This document shows, in pieces, positions 20,655 to 44,119 of a stretch of DNA of 64,000 nucleotides (positions are counted from its first letter, which is position 1; the number at the start of each line of letters is the position of its first letter). This DNA comes from Acidobacteriaceae bacterium (lineage in GTDB: Bacteria; Acidobacteriota; Terriglobia; Terriglobales; Acidobacteriaceae), in NCBI GenBank assembly GCA_003138515.1, contig PLGG01000035.1:16224-80223 (forward strand). Direction: 5' to 3'. The notes under the pieces are model-generated. The model had not been told where the DNA came from. It saw nothing but the letters and a program-made list of their open reading frames with translations, and made no database searches. The translations under genes and the position numbers were made by a program.

Positions 20655-21326
20655 TCAGGAGTGCTTCGCCTGCTCAGCGAGGTAGGCGAGCCACTCGTCC
20701 ATGCCCGCGCCGGTTTTGGCCGATGTCTCGAAGATGCGGATGCCGGGGCGAATCTCGTTGATGTTCTTGAGCGCGAGGTCGCGGTCGAAGGCGCAGGGAA
20801 CCGCGAGATCGATCTTCGTAATCACGGCCGCATCGGACGAGTTGAATAGCCCCGGGTACTTGAGCGGCTTGTCCTCGCCCTCGGTCACGCTCAGCAGCGC
20901 GACGCGGATGCGTTCGCCCAGATCGTAGCTCGACGGGCACACCAGGTTGCCGACATTCTCGATAAAGAGGTAGTTGAGGCCTGCGAGCGAGACGCCTTCC
21001 CAGCCTTCGAGATGTTTTGTGACCATCTCTGCGTCAAGGTGGCAGATGCCGTGCGTGTTGATCTGGCGCACAGGCGCGCCGCTCGCCGCCAGGCGCCGCG
21101 CATCGTTATCGGTTTCAAGATCGCCCACCAAGGCTGCCGCGTCCGCACCGCGTGCGCGCAGTGCACGCAGAGTCAGCTCAAGAAACGCAGTCTTGCCCGT
21201 GCCAGGGCTCGAGACGAGGTTCAGCACAAGCACTCCAGCCGACGTAAAGCGCTGGCGCAGCCCTGCTGCCAGCTCATCGTTCTTCTTCAGGATTCCCCGC
21301 CGCAGCTCAACAATCCGGGTCGTCAT
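20655..21326 (-). CDS. hypB: HypB, hydrogenase/urease nickel-insertion GTPase
   Basis: This is a 223-residue SIMIBI GTPase with P-loop VSSPGTGKTAF (about 38-48), GDLETDND, the metal-site segment THGICHLD, and the NKxD-equivalent TKIDL. HypB hydrolyses GTP to help HypA deliver Ni2+ to [NiFe]-hydrogenase large subunits. No N-terminal His-rich stretch or CxxCGC nickel motif is present, so it is the minimal form. Its ATG overlaps the hypA stop (ATGA), so the two are translationally coupled. No hydrogenase structural genes lie in the window. Confidence 0.95.
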   Translation of the reverse strand: MTTRIVELRRGILKKNDELAAGLRQRFTSAGVLVLNLVSSPGTGKTAFLELTLRALRARGADAAALVGDLETDNDARRLAASGAPVRQINTHGICHLDAEMVTKHLEGWEGVSLAGLNYLFIENVGNLVCPSSYDLGERIRVALLSVTEGEDKPLKYPGLFNSSDAAVITKIDLAVPCAFDRDLALKNINEIRPGIRIFETSAKTGAGMDEWLAYLAEQAKHS

Positions 21327-34074: not shown

Positions 34075-34566
34075 TTAGAGGCTCTTGAGATAGGAAACAA
34101 TCTCGGGGCTGGTCCACTCCTGAGGCCCGATGAACTTGCGGCGGACAATTCCCTGGCGGTCGATGACGTAGGTCTCCGGCCACATATCCGTGTGATAGAG
34201 CTTAGCGGCTGACTGGGTGGGGTCAAAGACGGTGATGAGGTCGACGTGATCGCGAACGATGAAGTTCGAATAGGCGGCGCGATCGTCGTCGATGCTGACC
34301 GCGAGAATGGCGAAATTGGGCTGTTCATGGTGGAGCGCGAGGAGCGAAGGCATTTCCTCGACGCACGGCATGCACCAGGAAGCCCAAAAGTTGAGCAGGA
34401 CAACCTGACCGCGGTAGCTGGCAAGATGGACGGTGGACGTGCCGTCGGAGACGGTGAAGTCGGGCGCGGCCTTGCCGGTTTGCGCGGGATGCGAACCGCG
34501 GTTGCACGCGGACAGAAGGGCTAAACCAAACAAGAGCGCCAGGATGAGGCCACGAGGGAACCGCAC
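34075..34566 (-). CDS. TlpA-like thiol-disulfide oxidoreductase, lipoprotein
   Basis: This 163-residue protein starts at GTG 34566 (AAGGA just upstream). The N-terminal segment ends in the lipobox LLSAC, giving a membrane-anchored lipoprotein. A thioredoxin-fold domain follows with WASWCMPC (redox CxxC), SIDDDRAAYSNFI and PETYVID (cis-Pro position). TlpA/ResA proteins reduce periplasmic disulfides, for example in cytochrome c maturation. A much longer open frame continues upstream but is antisense to the glycosyltransferase. Divergent from that gene with a 48-base gap. Confidence 0.9.
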   Translation of the reverse strand: MRFPRGLILALLFGLALLSACNRGSHPAQTGKAAPDFTVSDGTSTVHLASYRGQVVLLNFWASWCMPCVEEMPSLLALHHEQPNFAILAVSIDDDRAAYSNFIVRDHVDLITVFDPTQSAAKLYHTDMWPETYVIDRQGIVRRKFIGPQEWTSPEIVSYLKSL

Positions 34567-34614
34567 GTCCTTATAATACGGAGCGAGAGGGCGGGAAGAA
34601 AACGGTACGGCACG

Positions 34615-35811
34615 ATGAGCAAGGATGAGCCGAAGCGGAATAGGAGCGGCAGTTGGACGCCGGTGCTGGGCCTGGCCGATCCTGCCGAGGGCACGCCTCC
34701 GGCTGCGGACTGGCGCGAGTGGGCCGGCAAAACCGCCCCGGGAACCGTCTTCGACCAACCCGAGCCGGAGGAACTGATCGAGCTGACGGTGATCGTTCCG
34801 GCACGGAACGAGCAGGACTGCCTGGGAGAGTGCCTGAAGTCGCTGGTCAGCCAATCGGAAGAAATCTTCGCGCTGGGTCGCGACTGGGAGCTGATCGTCG
34901 TTGACGATCACTCGACTGACAGAACAGCCGAAATCGCGCGCGGATTTGGCGGCGTCACGTTGCTCGATGCGGGCAAGATCGAGGCTGGATGGACAGGGAA
35001 GTCCAACGCGGTTTGGACGGCGGCCCGGCGCGCGCGGGGCCGCTGGCTGCTGTTTACCGATGCCGATACGGTGCACGAGCCGGGCGACCTGCGCAGGGCG
35101 ATGCACGAGGCCGAGCGGCACAAGGTCGGCATGTTGAGCTACTCGCCGCGGCAAATCGTCCGCGGGCTGGCTCAGCGCTCGCTCATGCCGCTGGTTTTTT
35201 GTGAATTGGCGCTGGCCTATCCGCCTTCCAAGGTCTCTGACCCCGCGCAGCGCATCGCCGCGGCCAACGGCCAGTTCCTGCTGGTGGAGCGGGAGGCCTA
35301 TCGTAAGCTCGGTGGCCACCCCAGCGTGGCCGGCAAGGTACTGGAAGACGTGGAATTGGCGTTCCTGGCCAAGCGGCGCAAAGTGGGGCTGCGCTTCCGT
35401 TATGCCGACGATGCTGTCTCCGCCCGCATGTACCGCAGCACGGCGGCGATGATCGAGAGCTGGACCAAGAACCTGAAGCTGCTCTTCAACAACGCGCTCC
35501 TGCTGGCCCTTTTCAGGGCTCTGGACTTTGCGCTGCTCTTCGGGCTGCCGATCCTGGCCTACAAGTTGTGGAACGCGCGGTTGGGCGCGCATGCGCTCGA
35601 GTGGCTTGGCGCGGGATGGGTCCTGGCGCTGCTTTGGCTGCGCACACTCTTCCGGTTCTATGCGCGGGTGGCGAAGTCGAACTTTCCTTTTCAGGATTGC
35701 GCGCTGGCGCCCCTGGGTCTGCCGCTCTTTGTGGCGCTGCTCTATCGAAGCTGGTTCCAGCACCGCATCCTGAAGCGCGTAAGCTGGAAGGGGCGGAGTT
35801 ACCCGTCGTAG
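34615..35811 (+). CDS. Family 2 glycosyltransferase, HpnB/CrtQ-like membrane enzyme
   Basis: This 398-residue protein has a GT-A catalytic domain: LTVIVPARNEQDCLGECL near residue 58, VVDDHSTDRT, the DxD motif FTDADT, and ANGQFLLVEREAYRKLGGH. Membrane segments follow the domain (ALFRALDFALLFGLPIL and others). The layout matches GT2 enzymes such as hopanoid-associated HpnB and carotenoid-type CrtQ. No hopanoid or carotenoid synthesis gene is adjacent, so acceptor and donor are unknown. The next gene downstream starts about 125 bases later. Confidence 0.82.
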   Translation: MSKDEPKRNRSGSWTPVLGLADPAEGTPPAADWREWAGKTAPGTVFDQPEPEELIELTVIVPARNEQDCLGECLKSLVSQSEEIFALGRDWELIVVDDHSTDRTAEIARGFGGVTLLDAGKIEAGWTGKSNAVWTAARRARGRWLLFTDADTVHEPGDLRRAMHEAERHKVGMLSYSPRQIVRGLAQRSLMPLVFCELALAYPPSKVSDPAQRIAAANGQFLLVEREAYRKLGGHPSVAGKVLEDVELAFLAKRRKVGLRFRYADDAVSARMYRSTAAMIESWTKNLKLLFNNALLLALFRALDFALLFGLPILAYKLWNARLGAHALEWLGAGWVLALLWLRTLFRFYARVAKSNFPFQDCALAPLGLPLFVALLYRSWFQHRILKRVSWKGRSYPS

Positions 35812-35937: not shown

Positions 35938-36357
35938 ATGGTCTTTTTGACGCGGCGGGCGACATTTTCCGCATCGCATTACTACTGGAATGAGGCTTGG
36001 CCCGCGGAAGAAAACGAGCGCGTCTTCGGGCGTTGCGCCAATCGCAACGGGCACGGGCACAATTACACGCTGGAGGTGACGGTGGCTGGCGAGCTGGACC
36101 CAGTGACCGGCTTCGTCGTCGATCTCAAATGGCTCAAGGGCGTGATGGAACAGGAAGTTCTGGCAGCATACGACCACAAGCACCTGAATCTCGATGTACC
36201 GGAGTTCAAGCACGTAATTCCGACGACGGAGAATATCGCGATCGCAACGTGGAAGCGGCTGGAGCCGGTTGTGACCGTAGCGGGTGGAGCGCGCCTGAGC
36301 CGTATTCGCGTCTATGAGACGCCGGAGATCTTTGCCGAATACAGAGGTGAAGCGTGA
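35938..36357 (+). CDS. 6-pyruvoyl-tetrahydropterin synthase homologue, first copy
   Basis: This 139-residue protein starts at ATG 35938 preceded by GAGGGCAGGA. The zinc ligands are His14 (SASH), His39 and His41 (GHGHNY). The catalytic Cys33 is in FGRCANRNGHGH and the Asp79-His80 pair is in YDHKHLNLD; PTTENIA follows. The Cys-x5-HGH spacing is the one seen in eukaryotic biopterin-type PTPS rather than the Cys-x3-HGH of QueD. It probably converts dihydroneopterin triphosphate. The next gene overlaps by four bases (GTGA), so they are coupled. Confidence 0.9.
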   Translation: MVFLTRRATFSASHYYWNEAWPAEENERVFGRCANRNGHGHNYTLEVTVAGELDPVTGFVVDLKWLKGVMEQEVLAAYDHKHLNLDVPEFKHVIPTTENIAIATWKRLEPVVTVAGGARLSRIRVYETPEIFAEYRGEA

Positions 36358-36764
36358 GAGGATACTTCGGCCGCCGCTACATGCTCAGCGCCAGCCACCG
36401 GCTGCACTCGCCGGCTCTCAGTGCGGAGGCAAACCGCAAGGCCTATGGCAAGTGCAACAACGAACACGGCCACGGTCACAATTATTTCGTTGAGGTCTTG
36501 GTGGGCGGCGCGGTGGATGCGGAGACGGGAATGGTTGTGGATCTGGTGGCGCTCGATGACAAAGTGCGGGTGCAAGTGCTGGAAAGGTTCGACCATGGCA
36601 ACCTGAATCTCGATCCGCTGTTTACCGATCGCGTTCCCACAACGGAGAATTTCTGTAAGGCGATCTTTGAGTTGTTGCACGATACGTTGCCGGCGGGCGA
36701 GCTGGTGCATGTCCGCGTGGAAGAGACGGAAAACAATTTCTTTGAGTGTTCGGCGAGAGGATAA
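36354..36764 (+). CDS. 6-pyruvoyl-tetrahydropterin synthase homologue, second copy
   Basis: The 136-residue paralogue starts at a GTG overlapping the previous stop. It keeps every active-site element: His15, Cys34 in YGKCNNEHGHGHNY, His40, His42 and Asp80-His81 in FDHGNLNLD. The GKCNN sequence is close to mammalian PTPS. Two intact copies side by side could form a hetero-oligomer or act on different pterins. folE follows six bases later, so the operon likely runs from GTP to a pyruvoyl- or carboxy-pterin. The end product (biopterin-like, or queuosine precursor) is unresolved. Confidence 0.9.
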   Translation: MRGYFGRRYMLSASHRLHSPALSAEANRKAYGKCNNEHGHGHNYFVEVLVGGAVDAETGMVVDLVALDDKVRVQVLERFDHGNLNLDPLFTDRVPTTENFCKAIFELLHDTLPAGELVHVRVEETENNFFECSARG

Positions 36765-36770
36765 AAGACG

Positions 36771-37403
36771 ATGGCGCATCCAATAGCGGTAAGCAAGCCG
36801 GTTCGCGGGGCAATTGAGGTCGACGAAGGACTGAGCAGTTTCAGCACGCAGGAGATGTACCGCGAAATCTTGAGCCGCCTGGGCGAGGATCCTGACCGCG
36901 ACGGCCTGCGCTCGACTCCGGAGCGCGTTGAAAAGGCAATGACCTTCCTCACCAAGGGCTACGATCAGGACCCGGCGAGTGTTCTGCACGGGGCAATGTT
37001 CGACGTGGAATACGATGAGATGGTCATCGTCAAGGACATCGAGATGTTCTCGCTTTGCGAGCATCACATGCTGCCCTTCTTCGGCAAGGTGCATGTGGCC
37101 TATATTCCCAAAAAGAAGGTCATTGGTCTCAGCAAGATTCCGCGGCTAGTGGAGGTATTCGCGCGGCGCCTGCAGGTGCAGGAGCGGCTGACGCGGCAGA
37201 TTGCCGACTCCATTCAGGAAGCTATTGCACCGCAGGGCGTAGGCGTGGTCATCGAGGCGCGGCATCTGTGCATGATGATGCGCGGCATCGAGAAGCAGAA
37301 TTCGTCCACGGTGACCAGCGCCATGGTGGGCTGCTTCCGGCAAAAGGAGACGCGCGCGGAGTTTCTATCGCTGGTGCGGCAGCCGGGCACGGGGATCGTC
37401 TGA
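36771..37403 (+). CDS. folE: GTP cyclohydrolase I
   Basis: This 210-residue protein has the zinc site Cys-Glu-His-His in [20 protein letters not shown] and Cys in [14 protein letters not shown], plus [15 protein letters not shown]. FolE converts GTP to 7,8-dihydroneopterin triphosphate, the substrate of PTPS-family enzymes, so its place directly behind the two PTPS genes is functionally coherent. About 30 N-terminal residues precede the conserved domain. Length and motifs are canonical. Confidence 0.96.
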
Positions 37404-38344: not shown

Positions 38345-39235
38345 GTGAACGGACTTCTTGTGATCGACAAGCCGGGCGGGATAACCAGCCACGATGTGGT
38401 GAACCGGCTGCGCCGCATCGCTGGGGAGCAATCAATTGGCCACCTCGGCACGCTGGACCCCATGGCCACCGGGGTTCTGCCGCTACTGATGGGCAGGTTC
38501 ACGCGCCTGGCGCAGTACTTTTCCGCCGCCGAAAAAAGCTATACGGGAACCATTCGCTTCGGCTTCGCGACGGACACCTATGACGCTGAGGGCGAGCCTG
38601 CAGGACCTGACCGCTGGCGGGATGAAGCGGCAACGATAACGCTCGAACGGGTGCGCTCGGCCGCCGCGCGATTCCACGGCGAGATGGAGCAGATGCCGCC
38701 GCAGTTTTCCGCCAAAAAAGTCGACGGACAGCCCGCATACAAGCTTGCCCGCGAGGGCAAACCGGTTCAGTTGAGGCCTGCCCGGATTCGGATCGACGCT
38801 TTTGTGATTGAGGCCTTGGAAGGCCCCGAGGCCAGCTTCACCATTGACATCAGCTCCGGCGGTTATGTGCGCTCCGTGGCGCACGAGTTGGGGCGCGACC
38901 TGGGCTGTGGCGCGCACCTGAGCCGCTTGCGGCGCACGCGGGCGGCCGCCTTCACTCTGGCTGACGCGTACACGCTGGAGGAGCTTGAGGCGCTGGCCGG
39001 AAATGCCGAAGCGCTGGAGGGTTTGTGCATTCATCCGCGCGCTTTGCTGCCGGAAATGCCCGCCGTGACCGGCGACGGCCAGGCTCTGGGTCGTTTCCGC
39101 AACGGGGCGCAGGCTAATCTGCCGGAGTTCACAGCCGCTCCGCTGGTGAAGGTCTTCGCCGGGCCGCGTGAATTGGTCGGAATTGCCCGCAGAGTGGCAG
39201 GCACGCTTTTTCAGCCCGTCTTGGTGTTGGGGTAG
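38345..39235 (+). CDS. truB: tRNA pseudouridine-55 synthase
   Basis: This 296-residue protein starts at GTG 38345. It has GLLVIDKPGGITSHDVV, the catalytic Asp in GHLGTLDPMATGVLPLL, the EKSYTGTIRFG segment and GGYVRSVAHELG. TruB isomerises U55 in the T loop of tRNAs. Length is typical and a short C-terminal PUA-like part is present. rbfA/nusA/infB, its frequent neighbours, are not here. Confidence 0.95.
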   Translation: MNGLLVIDKPGGITSHDVVNRLRRIAGEQSIGHLGTLDPMATGVLPLLMGRFTRLAQYFSAAEKSYTGTIRFGFATDTYDAEGEPAGPDRWRDEAATITLERVRSAAARFHGEMEQMPPQFSAKKVDGQPAYKLAREGKPVQLRPARIRIDAFVIEALEGPEASFTIDISSGGYVRSVAHELGRDLGCGAHLSRLRRTRAAAFTLADAYTLEELEALAGNAEALEGLCIHPRALLPEMPAVTGDGQALGRFRNGAQANLPEFTAAPLVKVFAGPRELVGIARRVAGTLFQPVLVLG

Positions 39236-39237
39236 TG

Positions 39238-39378
39238 TCAGGTGTCTGGGGTCAGGTGTCAGGAGTCGGCCATCGACAACAATACGGGACAGCAGATTTT
39301 TGAGGGGCGGCACCGTTTTGCAAGTGGCGGATGAATTACTGAACCCTGAACTCTGAAACCTGATCTCTGATCTCTGAA
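39238..39378. repeat. Degenerate short repeats between truB and gcvH
   Basis: TCAGGTGTC occurs at 39238-39246 and again at 39252-39260, with CAGGAGTC next to it. At 39340-39378 a second array reads as variants of CTGAACTCTGAAACCTGATC, repeated about five times as 7-8 base units. This word style is not coding in any frame. The strip separates truB from gcvH and likely holds the gcv promoter too. Confidence 0.65.
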
Positions 39379-39467
39379 CCATGTCTCTTCCCCCTTTTCC
39401 TCACTCCCGCCAGCCCTCTCGCCTTAAACTGGAGTTTCGCTGTCTTACAAGAAGGAGCAGTCTCGCC

Positions 39468-39857
39468 ATGCCTTATCCCACGAATTATCGCTACACCCGC
39501 GAGCACGAATGGATTTCGGTGGATGGCGCCATCGGATCGATCGGAATCACAGACTACGCGCAGAACTCGCTCGGCGATATTGTGTACGTCGATGCGCCCA
39601 AGGTGGGCGATACGGTTTCGGCCAATGCCACATTCGGCTCGGTAGAGAGCGTCAAGGCCGTCAGCGACCTCTTTTCGCCCGTCAGCGGCAAAGTGACCGC
39701 GGTGAACGAGGAGCTGAAGACCGCGCCCGACAAAATCAACGAGGACGCGCACGGCACATGGATCATCAAAGTCGAGCTCTCCAATCCCGAAGAGGTGACC
39801 ACACTGCTCGACGCTGCGGCGTACGAGGCGTTTATCGCCGAGGAGACAGGTAACTAG
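39468..39857 (+). CDS. gcvH: Glycine cleavage system H protein
   Basis: This 129-residue protein starts at ATG 39468 with AGAAGGAG about 10 bases upstream; the longer frame is not supported. It has REHEWISV at the N-terminus, the lipoylated Lys in GSVESVKAVSDLFSP and the C-terminal WIIKVEL. GcvH carries the aminomethyl group between P and T proteins. It is followed by gcvPA and gcvPB. No gcvT is in the window. Confidence 0.96.
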   Translation: MPYPTNYRYTREHEWISVDGAIGSIGITDYAQNSLGDIVYVDAPKVGDTVSANATFGSVESVKAVSDLFSPVSGKVTAVNEELKTAPDKINEDAHGTWIIKVELSNPEEVTTLLDAAAYEAFIAEETGN

Positions 39858-39861
39858 CTGC

Positions 39862-39996
39862 TAGCTTCTAGCTCCTGGCCTCTAGTTGTTCCGGTGGCTT
39901 AGAAGCGGCGGCGACCGAATTGGAATTCCGAACAGGCCAAGACGGCCTGTTGCATTGGCTTTTGGCTAGAAGCTAGAAGCCAGGAGCTAGAAGCTA
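39862..39996. repeat. Nested inverted repeat between gcvH and gcvPA
   Basis: TAGCTTCTAGCTCCTGGC (39862-39879) is the exact reverse complement of 39979-39996. Nested inside is a second perfect hairpin, AACAGGCC (39931-39938)/GGCCTGTT (39944-39951) with a 5-base loop. GGAATTCC (39922-39929) sits between them. The unit is 135 bases, ends five bases before the gcvPA start and separates two genes of one pathway. It resembles a small non-autonomous repeat element or a processing hairpin. No reading frame inside. Confidence 0.8.
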
Positions 39997-40001
39997 AGAA
40001 A

Positions 40002-41351
40002 ATGCGCTACCTTCCCAAATCCGACGAAGAACGCCGGCAAATGCTGGCCGAGATCGGCGCGAAGTCGATCGACGATCTCTTCTCGAGCATTCCCGCCGAG
40101 TACCGCCTTGAACGCGACCTCACCGTGCCGCGGCAGCAGGCAGAGAGCGAGATCGTCGAATACTTCCGCGCCGCCGGGCAAAAGAACGCAACTGATTACG
40201 CCAGCTTTCTCGGCGCAGGCGCTTATCGCCATTACCGCCCCGTCATCATCGATGCGCTCGTTCAGCGCGGCGAATTTCTGACGAGTTATACGCCCTACCA
40301 GGCCGAGATCACTCAAGGCACGCTCCAGGCCATCTTTGAGTTTCAGACCATGATCGCCGAGCTCACCGGCATGGACGTGGCCAACGCCAGCATGTACGAC
40401 GGGTCTACAGGAGCTGCGGAAGCGGTGATGATGGCCGTGCGGGTGACTGGCCGCAGTAACGCCGTCGTCGCCGGGACCGTTCACCCTGAATATCGCGAGG
40501 TCCTCGCTACCTACGCGAAGCATCAGGGCCTACCGACGGCGCTGGTTGGCTACGATCCGGAGACTGGCCGCATCGATCTCGATACACTGGACGCTGCGGT
40601 TTCCGCAGAAACCGCAGCCGTTCTCGTGCAAAGCCCGAACTTCTTCGGCGTCATTGAAGACATTCCAGCCATAGCGCAGATCGCGCACGCACGAGGCGCG
40701 CTGCTGATTGTTTCAATTTCCGAATCTATCTCGCTGGGCATCGTTCGTCCGCCCGTTGAGGCCGATATCGTCGCCATGGAGACGCAGTCGTTCGGAGTGG
40801 CGCTCAGCTATGGCGGACCATTTTGCGGAGTCATCGCGGCCAAGGAGCAATTTGTGCGGCAAATGCCAGGCCGGCTCGCAGGCCAAACCGTCGACGGGGC
40901 AGGGAATCGCGGATTTGTACTCACTCTCGCCACGCGCGAGCAGCACATCCGCCGCGAAAAAGCCACCTCGAACATCTGCACCAACCAGGCCCTCGTCGCG
41001 TTGATGGCCACGATCTTTCTCGCTGTCTACGGCAAGGAGGGCATTCGCGAGCTGGCCGAGCACAACTTGGCCAAAGCCGATTACGCGGCCAGGACGCTTG
41101 GCAACCAGCCGGGCGCAAAGCAGCGATTCAAGGGCGCACCGCGCTTCCACGAATTCGTTTTGCAAACCGACGAAGCGCCTGAAGCGTGGAGCCGGCGGCT
41201 GCTTGAAAACAAGATCGTCGGCGGCATCGAGCTGAGCCGGTGGTACCCCGAACTCGGCAACTGCACGCTTTGGTGCGCGACAGAAGTAGTCAAGCGCGAA
41301 CAAATCGACGCGGCGGCAAGAGTGCTGGCAGCTGAAGCGGTGGAGGCATAG
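40002..41351 (+). CDS. gcvPA: Glycine dehydrogenase (decarboxylating) subunit 1
   Basis: This 449-residue protein is the N-terminal half of P protein. It opens [20 protein letters not shown] and has [38 protein letters not shown] and the [13 protein letters not shown] segment. It has lost the PLP lysine, as in the two-subunit type, and pairs with GcvPB encoded nine bases downstream. Together they decarboxylate glycine and load GcvH. Confidence 0.96.
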
Positions 41352-41360
41352 AGGGAAACG

Positions 41361-43043
41361 ATGACTTCGAATGCAAATAGTCCAGAAGCCCGTTCCGCTG
41401 GCCCCCGCACTCTCGGCAAAGTCCGTCCGCACCAGACGCAGAACGAGGCTCTGCTTTTCGAGAAGTCCTCGCCGGGCAAGCGGGCCTACAAGCTGCCGCC
41501 GCTCGACGTGGCCGCCGTAGACTTTTCTTCTGGTCTTGGAGAAGCGTATCGGCAGAACCCGCCAGCGCTCCCCGAACTCAGCGAAATCGAAATTATTCGC
41601 CACTTCACGCGACTCTCCACCTGGAACTACGCCATCGACCTCGGAATGTATCCGCTCGGGTCTTGCACCATGAAGTACAACCCGCGTGTGAACGAGCTTG
41701 TGGCGCGAATCGAGGGATTGGCCGAAGCGCATCCCTACCGGCCAGAATCGCTGGCGCAGGGAATCCTCGAAATCTTCGACCTCCTCCAGCGCTGCCTGCT
41801 CGACATCACCGGAATGGACGCTATCACGCTGCAGCCGGCTGCCGGCGCCCACGGCGAGTTCACCGGAATTCTGCTCACGCGTGCGTGGCACGAGTCGCAG
41901 GGCAATCCGCGCAAGAAGATTCTCATCCCCGACTCCGCGCACGGCACCAATCCGGCGACGGCGGCGATCGTGGGCTACGTGGTCGAGAATCTCAAGTCGA
42001 ACGCCGACGGCGGCATCGACCTCGAAGCACTCACGCGGCAAGTCGACGGAGAGACCGCTGCGCTGATGCTCACCAATCCGTCAACACTCGGCGTCTTCGA
42101 AAGCCAGATCCACAAGATCGCCGACATCCTGCACGCCAAGGGTGCGTTGCTCTACATGGACGGCGCCAACATGAACGCGCTGGTGGGCAAGGTGCGGCCG
42201 GGCGATTTCGGCGTGGACGTAATGCACCTGAACCTGCACAAGACCTTCTCCACTCCGCACGGCGGTGGTGGCCCCGGCTCCGGCCCGGTCGCCTGCAAGG
42301 CATTTCTTGAGCCGTTCCTCCCTATCCCGGTTCTGGTCCGAGGCGGAAAGGGCGAGGAGCCCTGTTCGGATGCGGGAGATTGGGAGGACACCAATGCGGA
42401 GCCGACGGCCGACGGCTGCCCGCCGCTGTTTCGCGCGCCCGTGCTCAAGCCCGACGGCGAGCGCGTCGGCGACACGGATCCCTTGCCGCTTCACCCGTTC
42501 GGCGGCCCGCTGCGCTGGGACTATGACCGCCCGCAATCGGTTGGCCGCGTTCGCGCCTTCTATGGCAATACCGGAATGTTCATTCGCGCGCTGGCCTACA
42601 TTCTCGCCAACGGCCCCGACGGCCTGCGCCAGACGACAGAAGACGCGGTGCTGAACGCCAACTACATCCGCAAGAAGCTTGAAGACGTCTACGAGCTGCC
42701 CTACAAAACGGCCTCGATGCACGAGGTGGTCTTCAGCGACAAGCGGCAGGCGGCGCGCGGCATCAAGACCGGCGACATCGCCAAGCGGCTTATCGACTAC
42801 GGCTTCCATCCCTACACGGTCAGCTTCCCGCTCATCGTCCACGGCGCGCTGATGATCGAGCCGACCGAGAGCGAGTCGCGCGAGGAGCTGGACCTATTCA
42901 TCGCGGCGATGCGGTCGATTGCGCGCGAAGTCGAAGAGAATCCGGAGCTCGTCAAAACCGCTCCGCATTCCACGCGCGTTTCGCGTCTCGACGAAGTGCA
43001 AGCCGCGCGAAAGCCGATCCTGCGCTGGAGACCGCAGCCGTAG
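41361..43043 (+). CDS. gcvPB: Glycine dehydrogenase (decarboxylating) subunit 2
   Basis: The protein is 560 residues, longer than the usual 480-490. It has the PLP lysine in HLNLHKTFSTPHGGGGPGSG and core motifs MYPLGSCTMKYNP and QPAAGAHGEFTG. Between FLPIPVLVRGGK and LRWDYDRPQS, about residues 327-384, lies an acidic, Cys-containing insertion of some 55 residues not present in typical members. It forms the catalytic PLP subunit with GcvPA. The insertion is in frame and coding-like, so it is probably genuine. Confidence 0.95.
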   Translation: MTSNANSPEARSAGPRTLGKVRPHQTQNEALLFEKSSPGKRAYKLPPLDVAAVDFSSGLGEAYRQNPPALPELSEIEIIRHFTRLSTWNYAIDLGMYPLGSCTMKYNPRVNELVARIEGLAEAHPYRPESLAQGILEIFDLLQRCLLDITGMDAITLQPAAGAHGEFTGILLTRAWHESQGNPRKKILIPDSAHGTNPATAAIVGYVVENLKSNADGGIDLEALTRQVDGETAALMLTNPSTLGVFESQIHKIADILHAKGALLYMDGANMNALVGKVRPGDFGVDVMHLNLHKTFSTPHGGGGPGSGPVACKAFLEPFLPIPVLVRGGKGEEPCSDAGDWEDTNAEPTADGCPPLFRAPVLKPDGERVGDTDPLPLHPFGGPLRWDYDRPQSVGRVRAFYGNTGMFIRALAYILANGPDGLRQTTEDAVLNANYIRKKLEDVYELPYKTASMHEVVFSDKRQAARGIKTGDIAKRLIDYGFHPYTVSFPLIVHGALMIEPTESESREELDLFIAAMRSIAREVEENPELVKTAPHSTRVSRLDEVQAARKPILRWRPQP

Positions 43044-43150: not shown

Positions 43151-44119
43151 ATGGCGAGCTCTCCTCCCAGCGCAACATCAGCAGATCACGCGCCGTCATC
43201 GGCGTATCGCGGACGCGTCGCGCCCTCGCCAACGGGCTATTTGCATGTGGGTCACGCGCGCACCTTCTGGACGGCGTTTCAGCGAGCTCGGGAGGCAGAC
43301 GGCACGCTCATCATGCGCATGGAGGATCTCGATCCTGATCGTTGCCGCCCCGCCTACGCCGAGGACGCCCTCGACGATCTGCGCTGGCTGGGAATCCGCT
43401 GGCAGGAGGGCCCGGACAAAGGGGGCCCGTTCGCTCCGTATGTGCAGAGCAAGCGCCGTACTGCCTACCTTGAAGTCTGGCGCAGGCTGCTGCGAACCGG
43501 CCGCCTGTTTCCCTGCCGCTGCTCGCGCAAAGATCTGGCCAACGCACTTGGCGCGCCGCATGAGGGCGCGCAGACTGTGCGTGAAGGCAGCGAATTCGAC
43601 AGCGTCGACGACGAGCCGGACGATGAGCCGCTTTATCCCGGCACCTGTCGGCTCTTCATGGGCGGCACACCGCAGCTCCCCGGTCCAACCGCTAGCGAGT
43701 TTGAAGATCCAGGCGGCACGAACTGGCGCTTCCGAGTTCCCGACGGCGAGGTGATCGAGTTCGTCGACCTCAACCTGGGTCCGCAGCGCTTCGTCGCCGG
43801 CGTGGACTTCGGCGACTTCGTCGTCTGGCGGCGTGACGGCGTTCCCAGCTATCAACTCGCCTGCGTGGCAGACGACGCGGCAATGGGCATCTCTGAAGTA
43901 GTGCGCGGCGCGGACCTGCTCAAGTCAACCGCGCGGCAAATCCTGCTCTACCGCGCTCTCGGTTTCAACCCGCCTGCCTGGTTCCATTGCCGCCTCGTTG
44001 TTGACCACAACGGCCGGCGCCTGGCCAAGCGCCACGATGCTCTGAGCCTCCGCTCTATGCGCCAGCGCGGGCTTACTCCCATGAACATTCTCTCGGCCGA
44101 GCTTCCAGTCGAGGCATAG
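43151..44119 (+). CDS. gluQ: Glutamyl-Q tRNA(Asp) synthetase
   Basis: This 322-residue protein is a truncated GluRS with only the catalytic domain: RVAPSPTGYLHVGHAR (HIGH-type), RMEDLDPDRC and the C-x-C zinc part in FPCRCSRKDL. KRHD (in RLAKRHDALSLR) stands in place of KMSKS. It attaches glutamate to queuosine 34 of tRNA-Asp. Its presence implies queuosine in this organism, relevant to the PTPS/QueD question. It follows gcvPB by 107 bases. Confidence 0.9.
   Translation: MASSPPSATSADHAPSSAYRGRVAPSPTGYLHVGHARTFWTAFQRAREADGTLIMRMEDLDPDRCRPAYAEDALDDLRWLGIRWQEGPDKGGPFAPYVQSKRRTAYLEVWRRLLRTGRLFPCRCSRKDLANALGAPHEGAQTVREGSEFDSVDDEPDDEPLYPGTCRLFMGGTPQLPGPTASEFEDPGGTNWRFRVPDGEVIEFVDLNLGPQRFVAGVDFGDFVVWRRDGVPSYQLACVADDAAMGISEVVRGADLLKSTARQILLYRALGFNPPAWFHCRLVVDHNGRRLAKRHDALSLRSMRQRGLTPMNILSAELPVEA

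Follow-up and report, generated by a model that had tools for sequence, protein, structure and literature searches.

The locus examined here raises the question of why an acidobacterial genome should carry two PTPS genes (copies A and B) in tandem before folE, and of whether the two proteins act separately or together. Paired copies with divided active-site residues, as read in relatives, suggest a joint action of the two proteins as a single enzyme.

The locus and its conservation

The features of the window, the stretch of 64,000 nucleotides that was analysed, are collected in Table 1. On re-reading the coordinates, copies A and B were found to share four bases (GTGA at 36354-36357) and folE to start six bases past the end of copy B, so that the tandem with its four-base overlap and folE directly behind, as well as the presence of gluQ, agree with the initial annotation. 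The ATG of copy A at 35938 matches the N-terminus M-[VI]-[FY]-L-T-R that is frequent in homologues. With truB, gcvH, gcvPA and gcvPB downstream, folE of the window has glycine cleavage genes, whose products use folate, in its neighbourhood; a truB relative was present nearby in 16 of 21 loci. A gene similar to the TlpA-like one seems to be present at the loci of relatives, but the cluster there also contained overlapping frames.

Table 1. Features of the window (positions count from its first letter)
Feature	Coordinates	Strand	Basis and remarks
hypB (hydrogenase nickel incorporation)	20655..21326	-	hydrogenase maturation locus may be near
TlpA/thioredoxin-like lipoprotein gene	34075..34578	-	by eye; start approximate; divergent from GT2
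GT2 membrane glycosyltransferase	34615..35811	+	profile matches, HpnB/CruG-like but below those cut-offs; upstream of copy A
PTPS copy A	35938..36357	+	ATG start; Cx5HGH; full catalytic set
PTPS copy B	36354..36764	+	GTG start; Cx5HGH plus ExxHGH; full catalytic set in window
folE, GTP cyclohydrolase I	36771..37403	+	NCBIfam equivalog over cut-off
truB, gcvH, gcvPA, gcvPB	38345..43043	+	downstream of folE
gluQ	43151..44119		

Of 60 same-family genomes, 58 (the window's among them) showed the A-B pair, and 56 gave at least three PTPS matches; two genomes of the family (G263 and G276) gave one PTPS match each, reflecting either true loss of the pair or assembly gaps. When 71 same-family loci were scored (the 58 and 13 further family genomes), folE stood beside the pair in 70, the contig ending first in L127, and GT2 lay on the same strand upstream of copy A in 65, window included. 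The occurrence of A and B together in 71 same-family loci indicates that the tandem is not due to chance. A scan of named genomes, taken as the best 80 of 565 confirmed stretches and thus favouring near relatives, recovered A, B and folE in order in 79 of these 80 loci, with GT2 upstream in 68 of them. The labels among the best 80 include Acidobacteriaceae, Terriglobia, Acidiferrales, gp1, gp2 and gp13, together with Betaproteobacteria (L193) and Bacteroidetes (L195, the sole single-copy locus of the 80); the survey covers Acidobacteriota plus these two loci with non-acidobacterial labels. Judged by the labels, the family of the window would lie in or near Acidobacteriaceae. Acidobacteriaceae, Acidiferrales and their kin have kept the arrangement A-B-folE, mostly with GT2 upstream.

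Class of the two copies and other pterin genes of the genome

Both copies were matched by the Pfam PTPS profile (E 2e-36 for copy A and 1e-28 for copy B), and the catalytic set of rat PTPS, whose numbering is used throughout (H23, C42, H48, H50, D88, H89, E107 and E133), is complete in each, including the zinc His ligands, catalytic Cys and Asp-His pair that had been ascribed to them. In the classification given in a passage of PMC5041015, CxxxHGH marks QueD, CxxxxxHGH marks PTPS-II and ExxHGH marks PTPS-III. The motif reads CANRNGHGH in copy A and CNNEHGHGH in copy B, confirming the Cys-x5-HGH spacing of eukaryotic PTPS rather than that of QueD; in copy B it also reads as ExxHGH (E-H-G-HGH), a motif absent from copy A. 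By sequence, the closest solved structures are rat and human PTPS (1b66, E 1e-36 for A and 2e-34 for B), with E. coli QueD (4ntm) matching far more weakly (E 1e-9 and 7e-6); each window copy is 48% identical to rat PTPS, and the two are 39% identical to each other. An AlphaFold model of copy B (pLDDT 95.9) found its best fold match in rat PTPS 1gtq (TM 0.95, rmsd 1.1 Å), with a TM of about 0.8 against E. coli QueD. Subgroup assignment by profile, as the initial annotation had proposed, placed both copies in the PTPS family and below the QueD cut-off (TIGR03367; 63.5 and 62.4 bits against 89.25 bits). The two copies are thus probably of the PTPS-II (biopterin-type) class.

The rat (1b66, 1gtq) and human (3i2b) enzymes have in common with A and B the Cx5HGH motif, the zinc His, the Cys, the Asp-His and the Glu; however, rat and human PTPS are homohexamers of one gene, whereas the window holds two diverged genes in tandem with folE. 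A bacterial PTPS-II of dual-domain structure was reportedly described by Kong et al. in FEBS Lett in 2006. With two PTPS domains per unit it is like the A-B pair in domain count, and in the window the two domains, unlike those of that enzyme, sit in separate genes; in two other families (f13 and f7) they sit in one chain.

The source assembly (4.23 Mb, 97% complete) was searched for further pterin genes. Three PTPS genes were found: copies A and B, and one on contig 79 that reads CENPHGH, a motif shared with the QueD genes examined in six further genomes of the family. By its motif, this third gene is the genome's QueD, of the published CExxHGH PTPS-I/III hybrid type. QueD/PTPS-I proteins and such hybrids have the fold and zinc site of A and B, but the contig-79 type differs from them in its motif (Cx3HGH or CExxHGH), in being about ten residues shorter before it and in lying elsewhere in the genome. 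Both a separate queD and queC, which it had been proposed to look for in the full genome, are thus present, and the outcome that would have refuted the initial annotation (A and B both falling with QueD in a genome lacking any other queD) did not arise. FolK is present too, and none of 60 family genomes had a FolB match above the cut-off, the three weak matches all lying outside the source genome. CExxHGH hybrids are described in part of PMC5041015 as able to serve both folate and queuosine synthesis, which fits the absence of FolB; a hybrid QueD able to account for both pathways would leave copies A and B free for another branch.

Active-site residues of the paired copies

For the comparison with rat PTPS, 139 A and 139 B sequences were used after removal of sequence duplicates (319 to 298 rows). 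A/B matches of less than 120 bits among the 80 loci were left out (L156_A gave 100 bits and no readable motif), as was L043_A from the residue scoring of the 71 loci, its frame being merged with that of GT2, although it is intact by eye. In copy A, H23, C42, H48, H50, D88, H89, T105, E107 and E133 are present in 139 of 139 sequences, and in copy B the same holds for H23, C42, H48, H50, E107 and E133. Asp88-His89 of copy B is intact in 93 of 139 sequences; in the remaining 46, 17 distinct pairs stand in its place. A quick tree of the B sequences, to which 25 A and other rows were added, has 27 changes of this state, with 74 of 169 inner branches open, and a quick A+FolE+GT2 tree of 71 loci, built without B, has 17. 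The copy B sequences form one group (SH-aLRT 88) and have rat-like L25, T134 and N137 at ≥99%; in copy A, Y25 and a P-D-L-F stretch predominate. The invariant zinc, Cys and Glu sites together with recurrent loss of Asp-His indicate that copy B is strongly constrained and that its own Asp-His is dispensable. In place of the two equivalent intact enzymes assumed by the initial annotation, the comparative residue data point to two non-equivalent partners, a new point beyond that annotation. The Glu of ExxHGH occurs in two of the 139 B sequences (the window and L129) and also in two fused f13 C-halves; window B was not adopted as a conserved PTPS-II/III hybrid because of this low count in B, the f13 C-halves notwithstanding.

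Across the phylum, an A/B profile detected PTPS-II-like genes in 59 of 247 genomes at E 1e-22, and all 14 two-copy genomes outside the window's family and f2 were read. Both PTPS domains lie in one chain beside folE in f13 (four genomes) and f7 (one). The f13 N-half has kept Asp-His, but its Cys42 is replaced by R or H and its Glu133 by T or A, and the C-half has Cys and Glu without Asp-His; in f7, Cys42 of the N-half is replaced by K and Asp-His is kept (the Glu133 column is doubtful), and the C-half keeps Cys and Glu with Asp-Cys in place of Asp-His. In f33 (three genomes) and f63 (one) the two copies are encoded on separate contigs. Cys and Glu are present in one of them, together with DR, DC or ER in place of Asp-His; the other retains Asp-His but is without Cys, Glu133 and the zinc ligand H48, and in f63 without H23 as well. 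Complementary loss, that is, a Cys-containing copy with broken Asp-His and a Cys-less copy with Asp-His, was thus found in nine of nine two-copy genomes without a complete PTPS-II (f13, f7, f33 and f63). The other pairs do not show complementary division: both copies are complete in f16 (four genomes), one copy is complete and the other lacks Cys and Asp-His in f31 (one genome), and in f2 (G171) copy A has lost Cys only and copy B is complete. Among genomes with a single PTPS-II-like match, 14 of 15 have a complete gene, including G030; the very divergent single copy of G182, likewise outside the pattern, is without Cys and Asp-His.

In a phylum tree of 137 columns, on which the deep branches rest and in which many forks are open, copy B was grouped with the f16 downstream copy, the f13 and f7 C-halves and f2 B (87/84), copy A with f2 A (94/97), and the f13 N-half with the f16 upstream copy (94/83). 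The f7 N-half is weakly placed on a long branch outside the copy A group, and the Asp-His copies of f33 and f63 form one group, also weakly placed. Their Cys copies fall among the single-copy genes (98/95), apart from the group of B and C-halves, and the split of the active site therefore seems to have arisen at least twice.

A proposed shared-site enzyme and the use of its product

In rat PTPS, Cys42 and Asp88-His89 of the catalytic triad come from different subunits. If the triad is divided in this way, a partner can lend its Asp-His to the zinc/Cys site of the other, and losses should be complementary in a shared intersubunit site, as was found. An intersubunit catalytic triad of PTPS was reportedly described by Burgisser et al. 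in 1995, and PMC7546909 describes the PTPS hexamer as a pair of trimers whose active sites lie where three neighbouring monomers meet. We infer a route in which 7,8-dihydroneopterin triphosphate, the product of FolE, would be converted by an enzyme composed of A and B to 6-pyruvoyl-tetrahydropterin or a close relative, in a branch separate from queuosine and folate, both of which could be served by the hybrid QueD of contig 79. In such a mixed oligomer A would always bring Asp-His, and B would always bring the zinc site, Cys and pterin-binding Glu; both copies are still complete in the window, B lacks an intact Asp-His in many relatives, and the division is complete in the four other families.

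On this evidence, A and B may well be two co-assembling subunits of one PTPS-II-type enzyme that share active sites, a reading for which the chances appear evenly balanced. More tentatively, acidobacterial PTPS-II could have come to require two kinds of subunit, the active site between them being split (Asp-His from one subunit; zinc, Cys and Glu from the other); of this development the window tandem would be an early, complete stage and the fused and dispersed pairs the finished stage, reached at least twice. Because A and B of the window are both complete, site sharing there is read from relatives. If true, it would provide a natural series that leads, by way of gene duplication, from a homo-oligomer with shared sites to an obligate hetero-oligomer and whose intermediate stages survive within one phylum. 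Naming such genes singly as QueD or PTPS can mislead. No description of a divided PTPS triad or of this operon was found in the one literature collection searched.

Copy A never loses its zinc/Cys site in 139 sequences and could act alone, so that it alone might be the PTPS, B having changed role to a pterin-binding or regulatory subunit or to an Asp-His-independent reaction. Both the completeness of A and the recurrent loss of Asp-His in B with zinc, Cys and Glu sites kept favour this explanation; however, nine genomes of four other families have complementary halves (fused in five of the nine), which are better explained by shared sites than by a free change of role, and the explanation is considered rather unlikely. 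The same recurrent loss could be taken as decay of B as a functionless, redundant duplicate, but a single B group, zinc, Cys and Glu sites invariant in all 139 sequences and a conserved gene order make this highly improbable.

Equally little probability is given to a role of one copy in preQ0/queuosine synthesis, which the initial annotation had held to be the main alternative. It would accord with gluQ in the window and with the superfamily that A and B have in common with QueD, but the genome has a separate QueD (Cx3HGH) and QueC, and A and B score below the QueD cut-off and have animal PTPS as their closest matches. A role of one copy, most likely B, in making 6-hydroxymethyl-dihydropterin for folate in place of FolB (PTPS-III activity) would accord with the presence of FolK without FolB and with ExxHGH in window B, L129_B and the two f13 C-halves. 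It is judged improbable, as the PTPS-III Glu is found in so few B sequences although FolB is missing across the family, and the genome's QueD itself has the published CExxHGH hybrid motif. According to PMC2229834, 6-hydroxymethyl-dihydropterin is made by neither the E. coli nor the human PTPS.

Biopterin itself is a possible end product, though a somewhat doubtful one. The dedicated pterin route envisaged by the initial annotation is supported as regards the PTPS-II class and the conserved unit with folE; a complete biopterin route is less well supported. No biopterin-dependent aromatic amino acid hydroxylase (PF00351) was found in the source genome; this raises the question of biopterin-type cofactor use in acidobacteria without such hydroxylases. 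PhhA was present in 23 of 60 relatives in one search and in 10 of 19 in another. Over the 71 loci it was present in 26 and absent in 15 with intact B versus 6 and 24 with broken B (Fisher p 0.0003, raw table); after correction for kinship, seven independent pairs on supported branches averaged 2.5 for and 2.5 against, a test of little power that leaves the link unsupported, and PhhA was not retained as the reason for an intact B. No SDR over the TIGR01500 (sepiapterin reductase) cut-off was found in the source genome, but none of 14 control genomes passed either, including that of Synechococcus elongatus, named in a passage of PMC5227711 as a known BH4 producer. An SDR (Pfam adh_short) directly follows folE in two of the three f13 loci covering that place (L214 and L215), and in f16 (L217 and L219) an SDR, assigned by eye, ends just before the PTPS pair; these neighbours fit the last step of BH4 synthesis, the SDR models being generic. 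The GT2 at the locus could point to a glycosylated pterin, as is stated in part of PMC3546692 to occur in cyanobacteria, though it resembles HpnB/CruG (below cut-offs). In the f31 genome (L224:2755-4717), the two PTPS-II-like copies flank a GT2 gene, and the second copy is the one without Cys and Asp-His.
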